A DNA stretch of 64,000 nt from Chitinophagales bacterium (GTDB lineage Bacteria > Bacteroidota > Bacteroidia > Chitinophagales > CAIOSU01). The DNA lies in the NCBI GenBank assembly GCA_026003335.1, contig BPHB01000002.1:1045363-1109362 (forward strand), given 5' to 3'. The position numbers and the translations under genes were made by a program. The notes under the pieces were generated by a model. That model had not been told where the DNA came from, ran no database searches, and was given only the letters and a program-made list of their open reading frames with translations. Positions 35,062 to 43,352 of this stretch are shown here, in pieces. The stretch's first letter is position 1. Each line of letters begins with the position of its first letter.

Positions 35062-38000
35062 TCAGGGAGTATGCTTAACCATTTTAACCATGTGGTACTC
35101 AGACCGCGGGATACTTTTCACAAAGAGCACATAGAGGCCATCTTCCAGCATTTGCATGTCAAAGTAATCCTCAGGGGAATGCATCCGTTTTTCAAAAAGC
35201 AGTTTTCCGGCAAGGTCCCGGCAACTCACTACCAAAGGATAAAAGGGCAGAGGCGCCTGCAGATAAATCAGGCCATGGGTAGGATTGGGGAAACTTACCG
35301 TTGTGCCCTGCCCCACTTCTTCACGTAAGGTCAATGTCACACAAACCGTATCCGAAATCGCTCGGCAGCCATTGTTATCCTCAATCCTCACCTGGTAACA
35401 GCCTGATACGGTTGCTTCCAGTTGTGGACCGGAAGCCGAATCTATCTCCAGTCCGTTGAAATACCACCGATAAGCTGCAGCCGGTGTGCTCTGCAGCGTG
35501 TTGCCGGCAACGGTTATGACAGGGCTTGCCGGTGCCGGATGCACTATGACATCCACCGCATCTGATTTACCGATACATCCGGAACTATCTGTATGTAAAA
35601 GCTCATAACTGCCTGCATCCCTAACCATCAGTTCCGGCCCGGTAGCATTAGGCAGTGGGAGAGAGTTTTTCAGCCATTGGTAAGTATATCCGGCTATAAC
35701 TGGTGCCCGGATCACAGCAGAGTCTCCCGCACAAAAGGATGTTTGACCATCTACCGTAAGTGTCAGACCTGATGTATTGCACAGTAAAGTAATCGTATTG
35801 GTAAAGGTATCAGCTCCGCAGCTGTTAAAGGCAATTAGTGTGACGATATACGAGCCGGGGGTGCTGTATATGTGCATCGGGTCCGATTGAATACTGGTGG
35901 TGCCATCTCCAAAATCCCACGAGTAAGAAAGGGCATGGCGGGAGGTGTTGAAAAAATAAACGGTATCCTTGTTGCCCGAATGTGTAAAACCGGCTTCCGG
36001 AATCGGAATAACCAGTACAGTAAGTGGTTCAGAGACATTGGAACACCCGCTGGTGCTTTGGGTGACCGTAACTGAAAAGGAGCCGCTTCCGGCAACGGTA
36101 ATATCCTGCGTTGTAGCGCCATTTGACCATTGATAAGTATACCCAACTCCTGCGGGCGCGCTGAGTACGAGAGCTCCGCCTGCACAAAAAACCGTATCTC
36201 CCGAAGCTGTTACCGAAGCGTCTGGCAGCGGATGCACGATAACATTTTCCGTTGCCTCGGTCGTACATCCGTTTACCGTTACGGTAACTGTATAGCTCCC
36301 CGAATGATGGGCCGTAATACTTTGAGAAGTGATGCCGTTGGACCACTGGTATGCATCACCGGGGCTGGCGGTCAGTGTCACACTATCTCCTGCGCATAAA
36401 GTCGTACTTGCTGAAGCTTGTATGCTTGCAAAAGATGTACTGGAAGATAATGTAACCGGAGCGGAAGTTGCATAACAACCATTGTATATTTCCACCGTGT
36501 AACTGCCGGCAGTATCTGCAGTAAAAGAAGCAGAAGTAGCTCCGCTGACAGGCAACCCGTCTTTATACCATTGATAAGAGTAGCCTGCACCTTGAGAGGC
36601 GCTTAATACCACGCTGTCGCCTGTACAAAGCATTGCTTGTCCGTTTAGGGTAATGGTGGCCGATGGAGCAGGGTTAACAGTAACAGGCACCGGATCAGAG
36701 AGGGCACTGTTACTGCCCAGGGTAATAGATACCGTGTAACTGCCGCTCTGGGTTGCCAGATAGGCAGATGTGGTGGCCCCGCTGATAGCTATGCCGTCTT
36801 TATACCATTGATACGTATAGCCGGTTCCGGAAATAGTGGTGAGCTTGACAGACTGTCCCTGGCAAAAGGTAGTGGCGCCTTTTGGAAATATTCTTTTATC
36901 CACAATAATGTTTTCATCCCCGTTTTGGTAAGCCAGATAAGAAAAAAAGACAAACATCATTTCATCTGTCGTAGCCTCACCAGCCGTTACATTTTGAGGA
37001 GGGTTGGAGGGGTTGTTGGGATTATTTACTGTATTATCGTAGGTGGCAGTTGCCCTTAATACGGTGCCTGTTGGGGCCTTGATGACATTGGGAAGGATAT
37101 AATTCAACTGCCAGTGAAAATCCCAGTCGGGTACATACACCCATCTGATAGTGTCATTGGTTACCGGCTTATTACCCCATGATTTTATAGTTTTTCCTAT
37201 CAGATGCATATGAGGCCACACAGAAAGTACAGAAATGTCCTGAGGTAAAGTAAACTGCTCATGAAAAGTTTTGATGGTATTGGCCGGAATCACGAAGGGG
37301 CCGTTGGTAAGGGAGGTGTAGTTATTCAGGAACGGCCATACCTGAATCTCTCTTACTGGAGCCGAGGAGAACTTGAAGCGCACTGATGTCTGGTCAGTTT
37401 GCCCATCGGCATGCTCCGGATAGTGCACCTGAATAATCACGGTAGCTCCTGCCGGCAGGAGGAATCCTGTTCCTACGGGAGCAAAGTAGGCCTGGGAACC
37501 GGGAGCATAGCCCATCACAATTTTTGACGTATAGGAGCCGGTAAGCAGATTCGTATAACCCGGCCCGGGATCATTGGCATCAAGCTGAGGAAATACCGAA
37601 GCGGTGTCGGTAAATACCAGCACATGATGTACAATGCCGGGATTACCGGGAATCACTTCAACGGCGGTGATGTATTTTGCAGTTGGGAAATTGGTGTAAA
37701 TAGGGAAACAGCGGTATACATCTCTGTTGTTGGCCGAAACCGTGTATGCCGGAATGGTGAGCACCATATCGGGGTTGGTTATCTCCGGAGCGTTGGAATA
37801 CTGAGGCTGTGCAGGAGCCAGACTCAGGTTACCCTGGGGGGCCCCGTTGCTTACCCACTGAGCAATTGCATCTTTTTCAGCCGCAGTTAAAACACGCTCG
37901 TGGGCAAACTGCCGGTAATTGGGGTCAGCAGGCCAGGGTGGCATAATACGACTCAACACGGCCGCCTGTATGCTGAAGCGTTCGGCATAGGCATCAGCAT

Positions 38001-38154
38001 AGGTAAGCAGGGAGAAGGGGGCTATTCCCCCGGGATGATGGCAGGGTGTGCAGTTGGCATACAGAATCGGGGCGATATGCTCTGACCAGGTAACCTGTGC
38101 CTGTACCATGGCGGCATAAAACAGGATAATGAGTGTAAAAAATCGTTTCGGCAT
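35062..38154 (-). CDS. Secreted c-type haem/copper monooxygenase-like protein with Ig/PKD repeats and T9SS tail
   Basis: The 1,030-residue protein has a signal peptide (1 to 20). An N-terminal haem motif CTPCHH (C35, C38, H39) lies in a domain ending in MPPWPADPNYRQF. A copper-type monooxygenase core follows (about 120 to 410): HH at 176 to 177 (GIVHHVLVF), H244 (QVHYPEH), HMH at 315 to 317 and DEM at 397 to 399. This reproduces the ligand set of peptidylglycine alpha-hydroxylating monooxygenase (HH, H, HxH, M). Several Ig-like repeats with the pattern CAGDSVTLTASPG and one PKD unit (SYSWDFGDGTT) follow. The tail (SFPNPTHGLIYLQ) is a T9SS sorting domain. It is probably an extracellular oxidase; the substrate is unknown. 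Confidence 0.85.
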   Translation of the reverse strand: MPKRFFTLIILFYAAMVQAQVTWSEHIAPILYANCTPCHHPGGIAPFSLLTYADAYAERFSIQAAVLSRIMPPWPADPNYRQFAHERVLTAAEKDAIAQWVSNGAPQGNLSLAPAQPQYSNAPEITNPDMVLTIPAYTVSANNRDVYRCFPIYTNFPTAKYITAVEVIPGNPGIVHHVLVFTDTASVFPQLDANDPGPGYTNLLTGSYTSKIVMGYAPGSQAYFAPVGTGFLLPAGATVIIQVHYPEHADGQTDQTSVRFKFSSAPVREIQVWPFLNNYTSLTNGPFVIPANTIKTFHEQFTLPQDISVLSVWPHMHLIGKTIKSWGNKPVTNDTIRWVYVPDWDFHWQLNYILPNVIKAPTGTVLRATATYDNTVNNPNNPSNPPQNVTAGEATTDEMMFVFFSYLAYQNGDENIIVDKRIFPKGATTFCQGQSVKLTTISGTGYTYQWYKDGIAISGATTSAYLATQSGSYTVSITLGSNSALSDPVPVTVNPAPSATITLNGQAMLCTGDSVVLSASQGAGYSYQWYKDGLPVSGATSASFTADTAGSYTVEIYNGCYATSAPVTLSSSTSFASIQASASTTLCAGDSVTLTASPGDAYQWSNGITSQSITAHHSGSYTVTVTVNGCTTEATENVIVHPLPDASVTASGDTVFCAGGALVLSAPAGVGYTYQWSNGATTQDITVAGSGSFSVTVTQSTSGCSNVSEPLTVLVIPIPEAGFTHSGNKDTVYFFNTSRHALSYSWDFGDGTTSIQSDPMHIYSTPGSYIVTLIAFNSCGADTFTNTITLLCNTSGLTLTVDGQTSFCAGDSAVIRAPVIAGYTYQWLKNSLPLPNATGPELMVRDAGSYELLHTDSSGCIGKSDAVDVIVHPAPASPVITVAGNTLQSTPAAAYRWYFNGLEIDSASGPQLEATVSGCYQVRIEDNNGCRAISDTVCVTLTLREEVGQGTTVSFPNPTHGLIYLQAPLPFYPLVVSCRDLAGKLLFEKRMHSPEDYFDMQMLEDGLYVLFVKSIPRSEYHMVKMVKHTP

Positions 38155-38293: not shown

Positions 38294-41179
38294 TCAGAAA
38301 AAGCGATACGCCAGCTTTAACTGAAATGTATATCCTGGCGACAAGAGAGAAAAATGTTTGTCTGAGCTGCCATACGAACGGAAGACGTATTCCATCCGGG
38401 AGTTCAGAATGTTCTGTGCTTTAATACTGAGAGCAAAGCGGGAGTTTTCCCCAAAGCTTTTGCTGAGGCTCATGTTGAGGCTGTGGAACGGTTTGGAATA
38501 CACATCCGGGCGATCAGCGATGCCTACATAGTACAGCGTATGCCCTTGAACATAGTAATAAAGCCCAGCTTCAAAGTTGCGCAGGAAACCCTTTTTTGCA
38601 CCCGTGTACACCAGGCCGCAATTGATTGCATAAGGCGATTGCCCGGCCATGGGGCGATAGGGTTTTACTTCTTCTCCGGCACGTGCGTTTTCCACACGGC
38701 TGTCCAGCTCGGTTTTGCTGAGTTGTATGCGCGAACCTATGATAGAAAAGTTGGCTGTCACTTCCAGAGAGCTTAGTTGGGGGCTAATAAACTTCAAACT
38801 GTGTTTCAGCTCTGCTTCTCCCCCATACACGTGTGCATCATTCACATTGCGGGGCTGATAGGCAGCCGCCTGCTGCACAAACTGCACCATTTCAATCGGG
38901 TTATTGAATTTTTTGTAAAATACGCCAAGCGAAATCAGCATGCCGGTATCGGGGAAAAATTCCCAGCGCAGATCATAGTTCTGTATTCGGGTGCTAGATA
39001 AGTTTCCCTCCCAGTAAACAACTCCTTTCACATCATTGGCATCGCGAAACAATCCACCGATAAAGGTGCGGCCGGTTATTGGATCATAAATTTCAGCATA
39101 GGACAGCTCTTTGAACGAAGGACGGGCAATGGTTTGAGAAAAAGCCGCGCGCAGATTATGCTTGTTATGGATAGCGTAAACCAGATTAACCGATGGGAAG
39201 AAGTCCACTTCGTCCAGGAGTTTATCGTTATTCAGCACATGTTGTTTTAGCTGATCATAGCCGGTATAACGCTGTGAGAAATATTCAGCACGTAACCCAA
39301 TAATGGCTTTCAGCGAAGATAATAGCGAGAGTTCTGCAGACACGTAAGCAGCCACATTGGATAAATTGGCTTTAAACTGATTGGGATTGGAAGGCAGGAA
39401 TACCGCTTCATACGTGGTGCCGTTGGTAAGGTCGCCTTGTGCCGGCCATAAGTTATGTGATGCAAACAATTCATCCGGATCACCGGTGAGGGGTATGTTG
39501 CGCACGTTTATATTAAAGCTACGTAAGACATAGTCGCGGGTTTTAAAAACATATGCGCCCCCCATGCGGAAGACCGTTGTAAGTCGCTGGAATTTTACAG
39601 GACCCGTAATGTCAGCGGAAGCAACAAAATTCCATTCTTTCAAATCCCTCCAGATGCGTTGCGGAAATCCTGCTTCGGTGCCAATGGAGAGCACACCGTT
39701 ATCCTCCCGATAACGGGTGAATCGGATATCCGGGTCGCTCATACCGGAATAGGTTGGAGATACATTCCATTCCAGTTCCCATTTCCTGGTCCAGTAATGC
39801 TTGCCATAAAGTAAAATGTGTGTAATGGCGCGCTGACTGTATTCCAGGTTGTGCTGGAAGGCACTAAACTCGGCTCCTTGGTCACTGTTTTCATAGTTGA
39901 AAATGCCGGCTTTACTTTCCCCGCTTTGCAGGTGAAGCAACGTTAATCTTATCTTGGATGTTTTGGTTTTCAGAGCTACACCACCCAGAGCACTCCACAA
40001 TACGCTATGCACACCCAGATCCCCTGTCTGGTATTCCCGCATTTGCATTTCCGTTATAGATGAATCGGCAGCAAGGCCATAACGTCCGTATGTGACATTG
40101 CGGTAAAACTCTGTTTCATTTTTGTATGTAAACACCAGGTTATAGCCGCCTGTAAATTTTTTAAAACTTTTTTGATTACCGGCATCCAGTGCGAGGCTGA
40201 AGTTCATAAGGCTGGTTTTCCTTCTGGCGGCCAGCACGGGATTGAATGATTCCAGTATTTCTCGGTAACGTTGAGCTTTGGGGCCATCAGCCTGGGTAAT
40301 GGCTTCTGTAAAAAATGGAATATCGTTCGTTGCCGGTATCTTTCTGGTGCCATCATCAAATCCAAGAAAGTCTGTTTTGCCGCCCCTGTAGGTCAGGTAA
40401 TTTTTATTGAAGTGGAAAGCCGGATTATATCCAAAGGAAAGCGCAATGCTGCCGGTTCTGACATCGGGAAAATCCTTTGTAGCAAGATCCACGATGCCTC
40501 CGGTGAAGTCAGCAGGAAGGTTTGCTGTAAATGATTTGTGTATAATAATGTTGTCTATTATGCCTGTGGGGAAAATATCCATCTGAATAGTGTTGCGGTC
40601 AGGGTCCAGGCCGGGCACTTCCATGTGGTTGAGCAAGGTTTTGGTATAGCGGTCGCCCAGTCCGCGCACGAACACATACTTGCCGGAGGAGACCGTAACT
40701 CCTGAAACTCGTTTGATGGCGGAGGCCGCATCGGAATCACCTGTTTTACTGAAGGCAGCCGCAGCTATACCGTCAATCAGGTTGGCTGATTTTTTCTTAA
40801 CCACCAACAGGGCATTTTCGGTATTGCGGATAGACTGACTGCTGACCGTTACCTCATGAATTTCAGTTAAAGCCTCTGCAAGGCGTAATTGCCCCAGTGA
40901 GGTGACTGCGTTGCTGCGCACTTCCACCTGTTGTACTTTGAGGGTTTCGTAGGAGACAAAAGAAAACTGCAGGGTATATATACCGGGCGGAAGGGATAAA
41001 CTAAACTTGCCATCCAGGTCTGTGAGGGTGCCTCTGTCAATGCCCTCAGCCGTTACGTGTACTCCAGGCAATGGTTCATCGGTCCCCTTATCCGTAATCA
41101 TTCCGCGAACAATGCCTTCCTGCGCGAGGAGGCTGGTGAGAGTGAGCAGAGCAAGTAACGTGCTTAAAACAGATTTCAC
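38294..41179 (-). CDS. TonB-dependent outer-membrane receptor
   Basis: The 961-residue protein has a signal peptide (1 to 19), a carboxypeptidase-regulatory-like domain (EGIVRGMITDKGTDEPLPGV, about 20 to 100) and a plug domain (about 130 to 230, ending in the NLPADFTGGIVD region). A 22-strand beta-barrel follows, ending in the aromatic C-terminal FQLKLAYRFF typical of outer-membrane proteins. It starts with GTG. It would import a siderophore, sugar or other large solute using TonB energy. The beta-helix lipoprotein gene is transcribed just upstream on the same strand and may act as its partner. A PhoB/PhoR-like pair is divergent beyond that. Confidence 0.9.
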   Translation of the reverse strand: MKSVLSTLLALLTLTSLLAQEGIVRGMITDKGTDEPLPGVHVTAEGIDRGTLTDLDGKFSLSLPPGIYTLQFSFVSYETLKVQQVEVRSNAVTSLGQLRLAEALTEIHEVTVSSQSIRNTENALLVVKKKSANLIDGIAAAAFSKTGDSDAASAIKRVSGVTVSSGKYVFVRGLGDRYTKTLLNHMEVPGLDPDRNTIQMDIFPTGIIDNIIIHKSFTANLPADFTGGIVDLATKDFPDVRTGSIALSFGYNPAFHFNKNYLTYRGGKTDFLGFDDGTRKIPATNDIPFFTEAITQADGPKAQRYREILESFNPVLAARRKTSLMNFSLALDAGNQKSFKKFTGGYNLVFTYKNETEFYRNVTYGRYGLAADSSITEMQMREYQTGDLGVHSVLWSALGGVALKTKTSKIRLTLLHLQSGESKAGIFNYENSDQGAEFSAFQHNLEYSQRAITHILLYGKHYWTRKWELEWNVSPTYSGMSDPDIRFTRYREDNGVLSIGTEAGFPQRIWRDLKEWNFVASADITGPVKFQRLTTVFRMGGAYVFKTRDYVLRSFNINVRNIPLTGDPDELFASHNLWPAQGDLTNGTTYEAVFLPSNPNQFKANLSNVAAYVSAELSLLSSLKAIIGLRAEYFSQRYTGYDQLKQHVLNNDKLLDEVDFFPSVNLVYAIHNKHNLRAAFSQTIARPSFKELSYAEIYDPITGRTFIGGLFRDANDVKGVVYWEGNLSSTRIQNYDLRWEFFPDTGMLISLGVFYKKFNNPIEMVQFVQQAAAYQPRNVNDAHVYGGEAELKHSLKFISPQLSSLEVTANFSIIGSRIQLSKTELDSRVENARAGEEVKPYRPMAGQSPYAINCGLVYTGAKKGFLRNFEAGLYYYVQGHTLYYVGIADRPDVYSKPFHSLNMSLSKSFGENSRFALSIKAQNILNSRMEYVFRSYGSSDKHFSLLSPGYTFQLKLAYRFF

Positions 41180-41288: not shown

Positions 41289-42515
41289 TCAGAAATCAGT
41301 CAGCTGGCCATCTGCATCAGCCCATGACCATCCGGTAAAGGAGGTTTTATTGCTCCCTACTGTATTTGCTCCCTTCGCCACTTTAGTGGCATGCACATGC
41401 GTGCCATTTCTGAATATCACGGACAGAGCTATCGTGTCATTAATCGGGGTGATTTGCAGATTTTCAAAAATCAGAGATCCATTATTAAAGGTGGCATCAG
41501 AACCGGATGACAGCGACAGGTCGCCCTTGCCGTTTTCTGCCGGATCGGGGAAATTGAAAAAATAAATATTACGATAGGTTCCTCTGGCATTATCGCGAAA
41601 ATCACCCAATTCAGCAGAAGGCGAACCTTTTATAGAGCCGTTAAAAACGGTACCTCCGGCAAGGAGGCTGCCTTCCGGCCCGTCAATTTCCAGCGCATGG
41701 TCTGTCTGTGAACCACAGATAACGACAAAGTTTTCCAAAGAACCTGACCAGCCTTGGTCTACATCAATAGCATCATCTTCTGGATTCCAGACGAGGATGT
41801 TTTTTACATCCACTGTGCCACCGAAAATTTCAATGCCGTCATCCTGATTGGAAACGATTTCAATATTTTCTACCACAGTGCCCGAGCCCACGCCTCCGAG
41901 GGTGAGACCGTTAATCTCGTTGCCCTCGCCAATATTTGCGCCTCCATGTCGGATAGATATATATTTCAAAACCCCGGAGTTGTCATTCGGATCCGTGCCG
42001 CCATAGAGTCCGTTCTGGTCGGAGGGTGGAATGCCTTCAATTTGCACGGCCTCTGCATCTGCGGAAATGGGAGCCCGCCCCAATACGAGTAATCCACCCC
42101 ATAAGCCGCTATAGGAAGCATCCAGGTTAGGGCTGGCTATCTGGCCAGGTTGAATTTCATCCGCAACAGAAGTGAAAATGATAGGTTCGGATGCGGTGCC
42201 TTCAGCAAGGATGCGGGACCCGCGAGTAATGATAAGTGCGGAAGCATTGGCGCCAGAACCGACTTCACCTTTGATTACAACCCCCTTCTGAATGGTAAGG
42301 GTGGCTCCGTTGGTTACGGCTATCCTTCCTGCTAAAATGTAAACCTTGCCAGTTTCCCATGTGGTGTTAGTGGTTATATTACTGTTTATCACAAAAGCAT
42401 TTGGGTTGTTTGGGTTATTGTTGTCATTGTTATCTTCCTCTTCTTTGCAGGAAGAAAATAATCCGGTGAAAAAAACGACCAAAATCAAAATGCCGAAAAT
42501 ATTTGATGTATTCAT
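41289..42515 (-). CDS. Surface lipoprotein with parallel beta-helix-like repeat, TonB-receptor partner
   Basis: The 408-residue protein has a lipoprotein signal with lipobox FSSC (Cys near residue 23), then an Asp/Asn-rich linker. The body is a right-handed beta-helix-like repeat: INSNITTNTTWETGKVYILA, IQKGVVIKGEVGSGANASAL and LWGGLLVLGRAPIS, then GGANIGEGNEINGLTLGGVG. The pattern is a recurrent Bacteroidota surface lipoprotein and is often found beside a TonB receptor. It is probably exposed on the outer membrane; the ligand is unknown. The gene is the first of a two-gene unit with the receptor and diverges from the response regulator. Confidence 0.75.
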   Translation of the reverse strand: MNTSNIFGILILVVFFTGLFSSCKEEEDNNDNNNPNNPNAFVINSNITTNTTWETGKVYILAGRIAVTNGATLTIQKGVVIKGEVGSGANASALIITRGSRILAEGTASEPIIFTSVADEIQPGQIASPNLDASYSGLWGGLLVLGRAPISADAEAVQIEGIPPSDQNGLYGGTDPNDNSGVLKYISIRHGGANIGEGNEINGLTLGGVGSGTVVENIEIVSNQDDGIEIFGGTVDVKNILVWNPEDDAIDVDQGWSGSLENFVVICGSQTDHALEIDGPEGSLLAGGTVFNGSIKGSPSAELGDFRDNARGTYRNIYFFNFPDPAENGKGDLSLSSGSDATFNNGSLIFENLQITPINDTIALSVIFRNGTHVHATKVAKGANTVGSNKTSFTGWSWADADGQLTDF

Positions 42516-42674: not shown

Positions 42675-43352
42675 ATGGTGCAACCATATCGCATTCTTGT
42701 TGTGGATGACGAACCGGATATATTAGATTTTATGCAGTATAATCTTCGTAAGGAAGGATATGAGGTGCAGACAGCAACCCATGGCCGGGAGGCGTTGGAA
42801 AAGGCCCTGCAGTTTAACCCACAGTTAATTCTTTTGGATATCATGATGCCGGTGATGGATGGTATTGAAACCTGCAGGGAGTTGCGTGCAATTGCTCAAT
42901 TAAAAGGGGTAATGATTGCGTTTCTTACAGCGCGTAACGAAGACTATTCCCAGATTGCAGGTTTGGATGCAGGGGCGGATGATTATATTACCAAACCCAT
43001 AAAGCCGCGTGTGCTCATCAGTCGTATTAAAGCGCTACTGAGACGATGGGGTGGTGAGTCTGAATCCGGTCGCATTGTGGCCGGTGATATAGAAATTGAT
43101 GCAGAACGCTATGTAGTGAAAACAAAAAACCGGGAACTGGTGCTCCCCAAAAAGGAATTTGAATTGCTGTTGTTGCTGGCTTCCAAACCCGGAAAGGTTT
43201 TTACACGCAAGGAGATACTCAGCAGCGTATGGGGGAATGAGGTGATTGTGGGCGATCGCACTATCGATGTCCACATCAGAAAACTACGGGAAAAAATAGG
43301 TGAACAATATTTCAAGACATTAAAGGGAATAGGATATAAGTTTGATCTCTGA
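42675..43352 (+). CDS. OmpR/PhoB-family response regulator
   Basis: The 225-residue protein has a receiver domain with the acidic pocket D11 and D12, phosphoacceptor D55 (ILLDIMMPVMDG), T85 and K107 (DYITKPIK). The winged-helix DNA-binding domain (about 128 to 225) contains LVLPKKEFELLLLLASKPG and VGDRTIDVHIRKLREKIG. It is next to a cognate kinase gene and divergent from the lipoprotein/TonB receptor pair. The PhoB name is used only as a family label; the signal is unknown. Confidence 0.92.
   Translation: MVQPYRILVVDDEPDILDFMQYNLRKEGYEVQTATHGREALEKALQFNPQLILLDIMMPVMDGIETCRELRAIAQLKGVMIAFLTARNEDYSQIAGLDAGADDYITKPIKPRVLISRIKALLRRWGGESESGRIVAGDIEIDAERYVVKTKNRELVLPKKEFELLLLLASKPGKVFTRKEILSSVWGNEVIVGDRTIDVHIRKLREKIGEQYFKTLKGIGYKFDL

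Follow-up and report, generated by a model that had tools for sequence, protein, structure and literature searches.

A gene on the minus strand of the analysed window encodes what is probably a surface-displayed, cytochrome c-fused dicopper monooxygenase with the PHM/DBH fold, in which the haem would serve as a built-in point of electron entry. The window is the whole 64,000-nucleotide stretch of DNA examined (GCA_026003335.1, BPHB01000002.1, positions 1,045,363-1,109,362, from a Chitinophagales bacterium), and positions are given in window numbering. PHM-type enzymes finish animal peptide hormones and DBH-type enzymes make noradrenaline. The open reading frame codes for 1,030 amino acids with zero internal stops, and its features are collected in Table 1. 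The residues singled out in an earlier note on this DNA, CTPCH(H) at 35-40, HH at 176-177, H244, H315, H317 and M399, were found at exactly these positions.

Table 1. Features of the haem-PHM gene and its product, in window positions (residue numbers refer to the window protein).
Feature	Position	Strand	Basis
Whole gene; product predicted to be secreted, with haem-c, PHM-like dicopper, Ig/PKD and T9SS-tail parts	35062..38154	-	ORF reading, Pfam
Predicted signal peptide, residues 1-20 (MPKRFFTLIILFYAAMVQAQ)	38095..38154	-	Sequence reading; hydrophobic N-terminal helix in model
Cytochrome c-like haem domain, residues 21-115	37810..38094	-	PF13442 in relatives; weak PDB profile matches; helical model
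CTPCH haem-attachment motif, residues 35-39	38038..38052	-	C35, C38, H39 identical 36/36
M71 of MPPW (71-74), putative axial ligand of the haem, 36 positions downstream of C35	37942..37944	-	36/36; aligned with MP of bc1-type cytochrome c subunit
PHM-like N-subdomain (CuH site), residues 127-285	37300..37776	-	PF01082; PDB profile and fold matches
H176-H177, CuH ligands (PHM H107, H108)	37624..37629	-	PHM alignment; 36/36
H244, third CuH ligand (PHM H172)	37423..37425	-	PHM alignment; 36/36
PHM-like C-subdomain (CuM site), residues 286-415	36910..37299	-	PF03712; PDB profile and fold matches
H315-M-H317, CuM ligands (PHM H242, H244)	37204..37212	-	PHM alignment; 36/36
WDFHWQ signature, residues 344-349; Q349 at PHM Q272 position	37108..37125	-	W-D-F and W-Q conserved, middle H variable
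M399, CuM ligand (PHM M314)	36958..36960	-	PHM alignment; 36/36
Six Ig-like units and one PKD (at about 717-789), residues 420-945	35320..36897	-	Pfam; repeat landmarks
T9SS type A sorting tail, residues 955-1030	35065..35292	-	PF18962 E 1.2e-3, TIGR04183 E 6.7e-4, both below cut-off

Comparison of the window protein with Pfam resulted in matches to Cu2_monooxygen (E 7e-5), Cu2_monoox_C (3e-3), PKD (9e-18), Ig_2 (2e-10) and Por_Secre_tail (about 1e-3), and the Ig/PKD units described previously are thus recognized by the PKD and Ig_2 models. Both copper-domain scores were below the gathering cut-offs (PF01082, 25.0 vs 30 bits; PF03712, 19.1 vs 23), and some relatives, for example L005 and L001, clear one of them. 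A gathering score is a detection threshold and no structural feature; membership is decided by fold and ligands.

To establish the family, 41 homologous loci were gathered and 36 sequences, the window protein included, were aligned; this alignment is the basis of all counts out of 36. As a query for genome searches PF01082 was too insensitive, with zero matches even in the window's own genome, and family alignments were therefore used as queries. The N-terminal part of the window protein gave no match in a single-sequence search of the PDB. The family profile matched PHM (E 1.7e-14) and DBH (E 4e-13). An AlphaFold2 model built from the family alignment reached a pLDDT of 90 and a pTM of 0.85, and the top 31 Foldseek matches of this model in the PDB were all DBH or PHM (E 7e-15 to 4e-11). 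The best match was human DBH (4zel, E 7e-15), and rat PHM gave TM values of 0.55-0.70 by PHM length. The six copper ligands H176, H177, H244, H315, H317 and M399 were kept in all 36 sequences and each aligned on its PHM counterpart, so that the PHM-type ligand set claimed in the earlier note was borne out. The modelled fold and both ligand sets place the protein in the copper type II monooxygenase fold of PHM and DBH.

That single-sequence Pfam scores fall below the gathering cut-offs could be taken as a sign that unrelated motifs had been combined by chance or falsely joined. This was refuted by the PDB profile match, the Foldseek matches and the invariant columns of the 41-sequence alignment, and the same order and spacing recur across several phyla, in dozens of independent genomes, which leaves the explanation a negligible probability. 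When the PHM region was aligned across 41 sequences, including the remote subfamily and with identities down to 22%, eight columns were invariant and six of these were the copper ligands.

The surroundings of the copper sites were also conserved. Q349, at the position of the PHM second-sphere residue Q272, was retained in 36/36, and Q242, corresponding to PHM Q170, was Gln in 29/36 and Glu in five; E398 and N374 are further conserved neighbours. In PHM, Q170, Q272 and H108 share a network of waters that is considered a prerequisite for binding of the substrate (PMC6123673). The WDFHWQ signature appeared invariant in the first alignment, which was partly an artefact because PDWDFHWQ was among the scan patterns. 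As its middle His varies in genomes found by profile, H347 is assigned no metal role.

Since the fold, the six ligands and the equivalents of Q170 and Q272 are those of PHM, the protein might be a true PHM that hydroxylates peptides at their C-terminal glycine, the reaction used for peptide amidation in animals. According to structure work on rat PHM, the peptide carboxylate is gripped by R240, N316 and Y318. In the window protein these positions are occupied by W313, F401 and F403, and across the family Arg was found in 0/36, Asn in 0/36 and Tyr in 14/36. Furthermore, no PAL-type lyase was recurrent among 63 flanking proteins from about 30 loci. Because R240 and N316 are absent throughout and Y318 is mostly lost, a peptidylglycine hydroxylase is very unlikely, and the action on peptides considered previously is, for peptides of the PHM type, not supported, the carboxylate anchor R240 being absent from all 36 sequences checked. 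With the Q272 and Q170 equivalents kept and the R240 grip gone, the catalytic machinery looks active and the grip on the substrate altered.

Alternatively, the fold could have been kept in a surface protein that is no enzyme and that binds copper or haem, conducts electrons or acts in adhesion. The large Ig/PKD array and the absence of a conserved neighbour would be consistent with this, but two different copper sites, together with Q349, E398 and N374, were kept without exception and would be needless for binding or adhesion; we consider this explanation improbable.

In the haem domain C35, C38, H39 and M71 were identical in 36/36 sequences, which upholds the CxxCH haem motif reported previously and adds M71 as a candidate for the axial Met. 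The Cytochrome_CBB3 model (PF13442) matched 30 of the 36 members at E<=0.1, with a best value of 2.9e-5. With a profile of the haem region, PDB cytochromes c were matched weakly (E >= 4.5e-4), and M71 aligned with the MP motif of the bc1-type cytochrome c subunit. When the haem domain was modelled alone, the expected helices were obtained (pLDDT 88.5), and a Foldseek search of this model against the PDB gave no significant fold match. The role of M71 as axial ligand is a candidate one, suggested by its conservation and alignment. Two cytochrome c assembly proteins are encoded in the host genome, which makes covalent attachment of the haem plausible.

The earlier note had proposed a search for the haem-PHM fusion in other Bacteroidota. 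In 395 Bacteroidota genomes, 45 carried PHM-like genes, 52 in total, and 51 of these were examined. As the check on L045-L068 was conditioned on the haem-PHM pattern, the fusion was counted from a search with a PHM-only profile. A C-x(2-4)-CH motif was present N-terminal to the PHM part in 48 of the 51 proteins; the fusion is the rule in Bacteroidota. Of the three proteins lacking it, one was apparently cut at a contig end with the haem half on another contig, one (L128) was frameshifted with the haem motif in another frame, and L125, a 318-residue PHM-like lipoprotein, truly lacks the motif, is the only apparent loss and would be useful as a natural haem-less control.

The Bacteroidota proteins form two subfamilies, A, which includes the window protein, and B. 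The first Cys and the Met are separated by 36 residues in subfamily A vs 72-82 in B. From the Met to the first copper ligands (HH) the distance in A is 102-112 residues, with one protein at 126, compared with 94-105 in B. Because the latter spacing is nearly constant though the haem loops differ, it argues that the haem packs against the CuH subdomain in a set position. Beyond Bacteroidota, subfamily-A members were found in Chloroflexota, Myxococcota, Verrucomicrobiota, Bdellovibrionota and one Rhodobacterales bin. The C-terminal parts of the relatives were varied, with no addition, a T9SS tail only, Ig/PKD units and a T9SS tail, dockerin-like repeats, or TPR, and the Ig/PKD form of the window protein constitutes one clade with L001, L003 and L004 (support 99/98).

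Each copper of PHM receives one electron from ascorbate (PMC6123673), and the fused haem suggests a replacement for ascorbate (vitamin C) as the electron source. This reading gains indirect support from the fusion being the rule with conserved spacing. The protein could also be a monooxygenase in which the haem is no relay and has a structural, redox-sensing, O2/NO-sensing or peroxide-related role, with ascorbate-like reductants feeding the coppers directly. Ascorbate does give electrons to PHM directly, and PHM can work with H2O2 in place of O2 and reductant (PMC6123673). However, the combination of CxxCH and an unvarying Met resembles that of a six-coordinate haem for electron transfer, the nearly universal fusion and its fixed spacing speak for a relay, and the redoxin-haem-PHM variant L068 has an additional redox module upstream. 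A haem without a relay function is therefore unlikely, though less so than the explanations dealt with above.

For the preferred reading, a haem that feeds the coppers, the following course is inferred, from export and the binding of haem and metals to electron flow and hydroxylation. The protein would leave the cytoplasm by Sec, haem c would be attached in the periplasm by the cytochrome c assembly proteins of the genome, and the folded protein would be exported to the cell surface by the T9SS, where the Ig/PKD array may be a spacer or an adhesive stalk. The haem (H39, M71) would be reduced, one electron at a time, by an external donor, and would hand the electrons to CuH (H176, H177, H244), thereby doing the job that ascorbate has in animals, while CuM (H315, H317, M399) would bind O2 and hydroxylate a C-H bond of a substrate other than peptidylglycine. 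The designation of the protein as a self-contained oxygenase was too strong, because a single haem still depends on a donor outside the protein for its re-reduction. A polymer substrate, as envisaged in the earlier note, is a guess from the display modules.

Export to the surface is indicated by several features. SprA is encoded in the host genome (E 7e-173) along with 146 T9SS tails. The tail of the window protein, which had been recognized before, is matched by PF18962 and TIGR04183 below their cut-offs, and those of the relatives L001, L005 and L043 pass the PF18962 cut-off. The type A sorting domain and the T9SS of the genome assign the protein to the predicted cargo of this system. As the tail, SprA and the 146 tails point to surface export, the donor to the haem would have to be extracellular or seated in the outer membrane.

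On the same strand, the haem-PHM gene is preceded by a gene for a TonB-dependent receptor with CarboxypepD_reg (38294-41179) at a gap of 139 bases, and 109 bases from the latter lies a gene for a 408-residue lipoprotein without a Pfam match (41289-42515). A gene for a PhoB-like response regulator (42675-43352) adjoins this pair. Across about 30 loci no conserved genomic partner was found, with no family among the 63 flanking proteins present in more than four loci. Genomic context was discarded as a guide to substrate or donor, as no neighbour is kept across the family. SusD-like proteins were observed near the tail-less haem-PHM genes L060-L066, and a downstream FG-GAP/VCBS-type protein in several loci; such neighbours recur only in this tail-less subclade.

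Among known systems, PHM (PF01082 and PF03712; 1phm, 1opm) shares the two-subdomain beta fold, the HH...H ligands of CuH, the HxH...M ligands of CuM and the Q170/Q272 equivalents. Unlike PHM, the window protein has an N-terminal haem c domain, is bacterial and predicted to be exported by the T9SS, is 14-17% identical to PHM in the fold alignment, and belongs to a family without R240, N316 and usually Y318. DBH/MOXD (4zel) gave the best Foldseek E-value and a profile E of 4e-13. DBH carries an extra N-terminal domain, DOMON, whereas in the window protein the haem c domain is in its place. The haem domain resembles class I/cbb3-type cytochromes c (PF13442), PccH (4rlr) and the haem domain of hydrazine synthase alpha (5c2v) in the CxxCH near the N-terminal helix, the downstream Met and a closing C-terminal helix with a conserved Trp, but the similarity is weak, as given above for the PDB profile and the lone-domain model. 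LPMOs supplied by the cytochrome of cellobiose dehydrogenase are likewise extracellular copper oxygenases fed by a haem domain. They differ from the window protein in an unrelated fold, one copper, and a haem b in a separate protein. Cytochrome c domains of Verrucomicrobia and planctomycetes are fused to carbohydrate-binding modules (PMC5615132); these also combine haem c and binding modules in one chain, but a copper monooxygenase was not reported there.

In the open-access literature searched, no description of a bacterial haem-PHM fusion was found, and an earlier account may exist elsewhere. No NCBIfam model matched the haem-PHM protein. Both halves belong to known families, but their fusion as the norm among bacteria seems not to have been described. 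A wider proposal, which we put forward tentatively and with somewhat less than even confidence, is that the bacterial PHM/DBH branch is, as a rule, a one-chain cytochrome c-dicopper oxygenase with a covalent haem as the obligatory electron entry to CuH, that the use of ascorbate in animals would be a later replacement, and that the Bacteroidota members would bring this chemistry to the surface. The route of electrons to the two coppers is a central question for PHM and DBH and has hitherto been studied with ascorbate in the animal enzymes. A fused haem at a fixed spacing to CuH would act as an internal optical reporter and let electrons in at a defined point, and transfer from haem to CuH to CuM could then be timed directly. 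Bacteria of several phyla may moreover possess a class of C-H oxygenases that work outside the cytoplasm and are without a curated NCBIfam model.

The host genome contains two further haem-PHM copies. One (L074:7446-9011, on C1) is an intact paralogue of 521 residues with haem, PHM and T9SS parts and without Ig/PKD units; it is 44% identical to the window copy and groups with L058, L019 and L036 and not with the window copy. The other (L128, on C2, at about 1,042.2-1,043.8 kb) lies about 2 kb before the window start and is a subfamily-B gene with a T9SS tail, in which the haem motif CAAYCH and the PHM part are in different reading frames; a frameshift, a decayed gene or an assembly error would account for this. 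Subfamily B (L104-L124) has CX2-4CH motifs, MPLG replacing MPPW and six copper ligands that are apparently kept, and deserves a separate family model. In the 602-residue frame of L068 a redoxin/thioredoxin-like domain, assigned by eye, is followed by haem and PHM parts in one chain, which makes a longer built-in redox relay possible. A T9SS-tailed member in a MAG labelled Streptomyces griseus (L013, CALPIT020000070.1) groups inside Bacteroidota, and this bin is probably mislabelled or contaminated. A second haem-PHM gene was present in tandem in L022 and L020, and haem-PHM proteins with C-terminal dockerin-like repeats were observed at L021:4977-6458 and L022:4935-6434.
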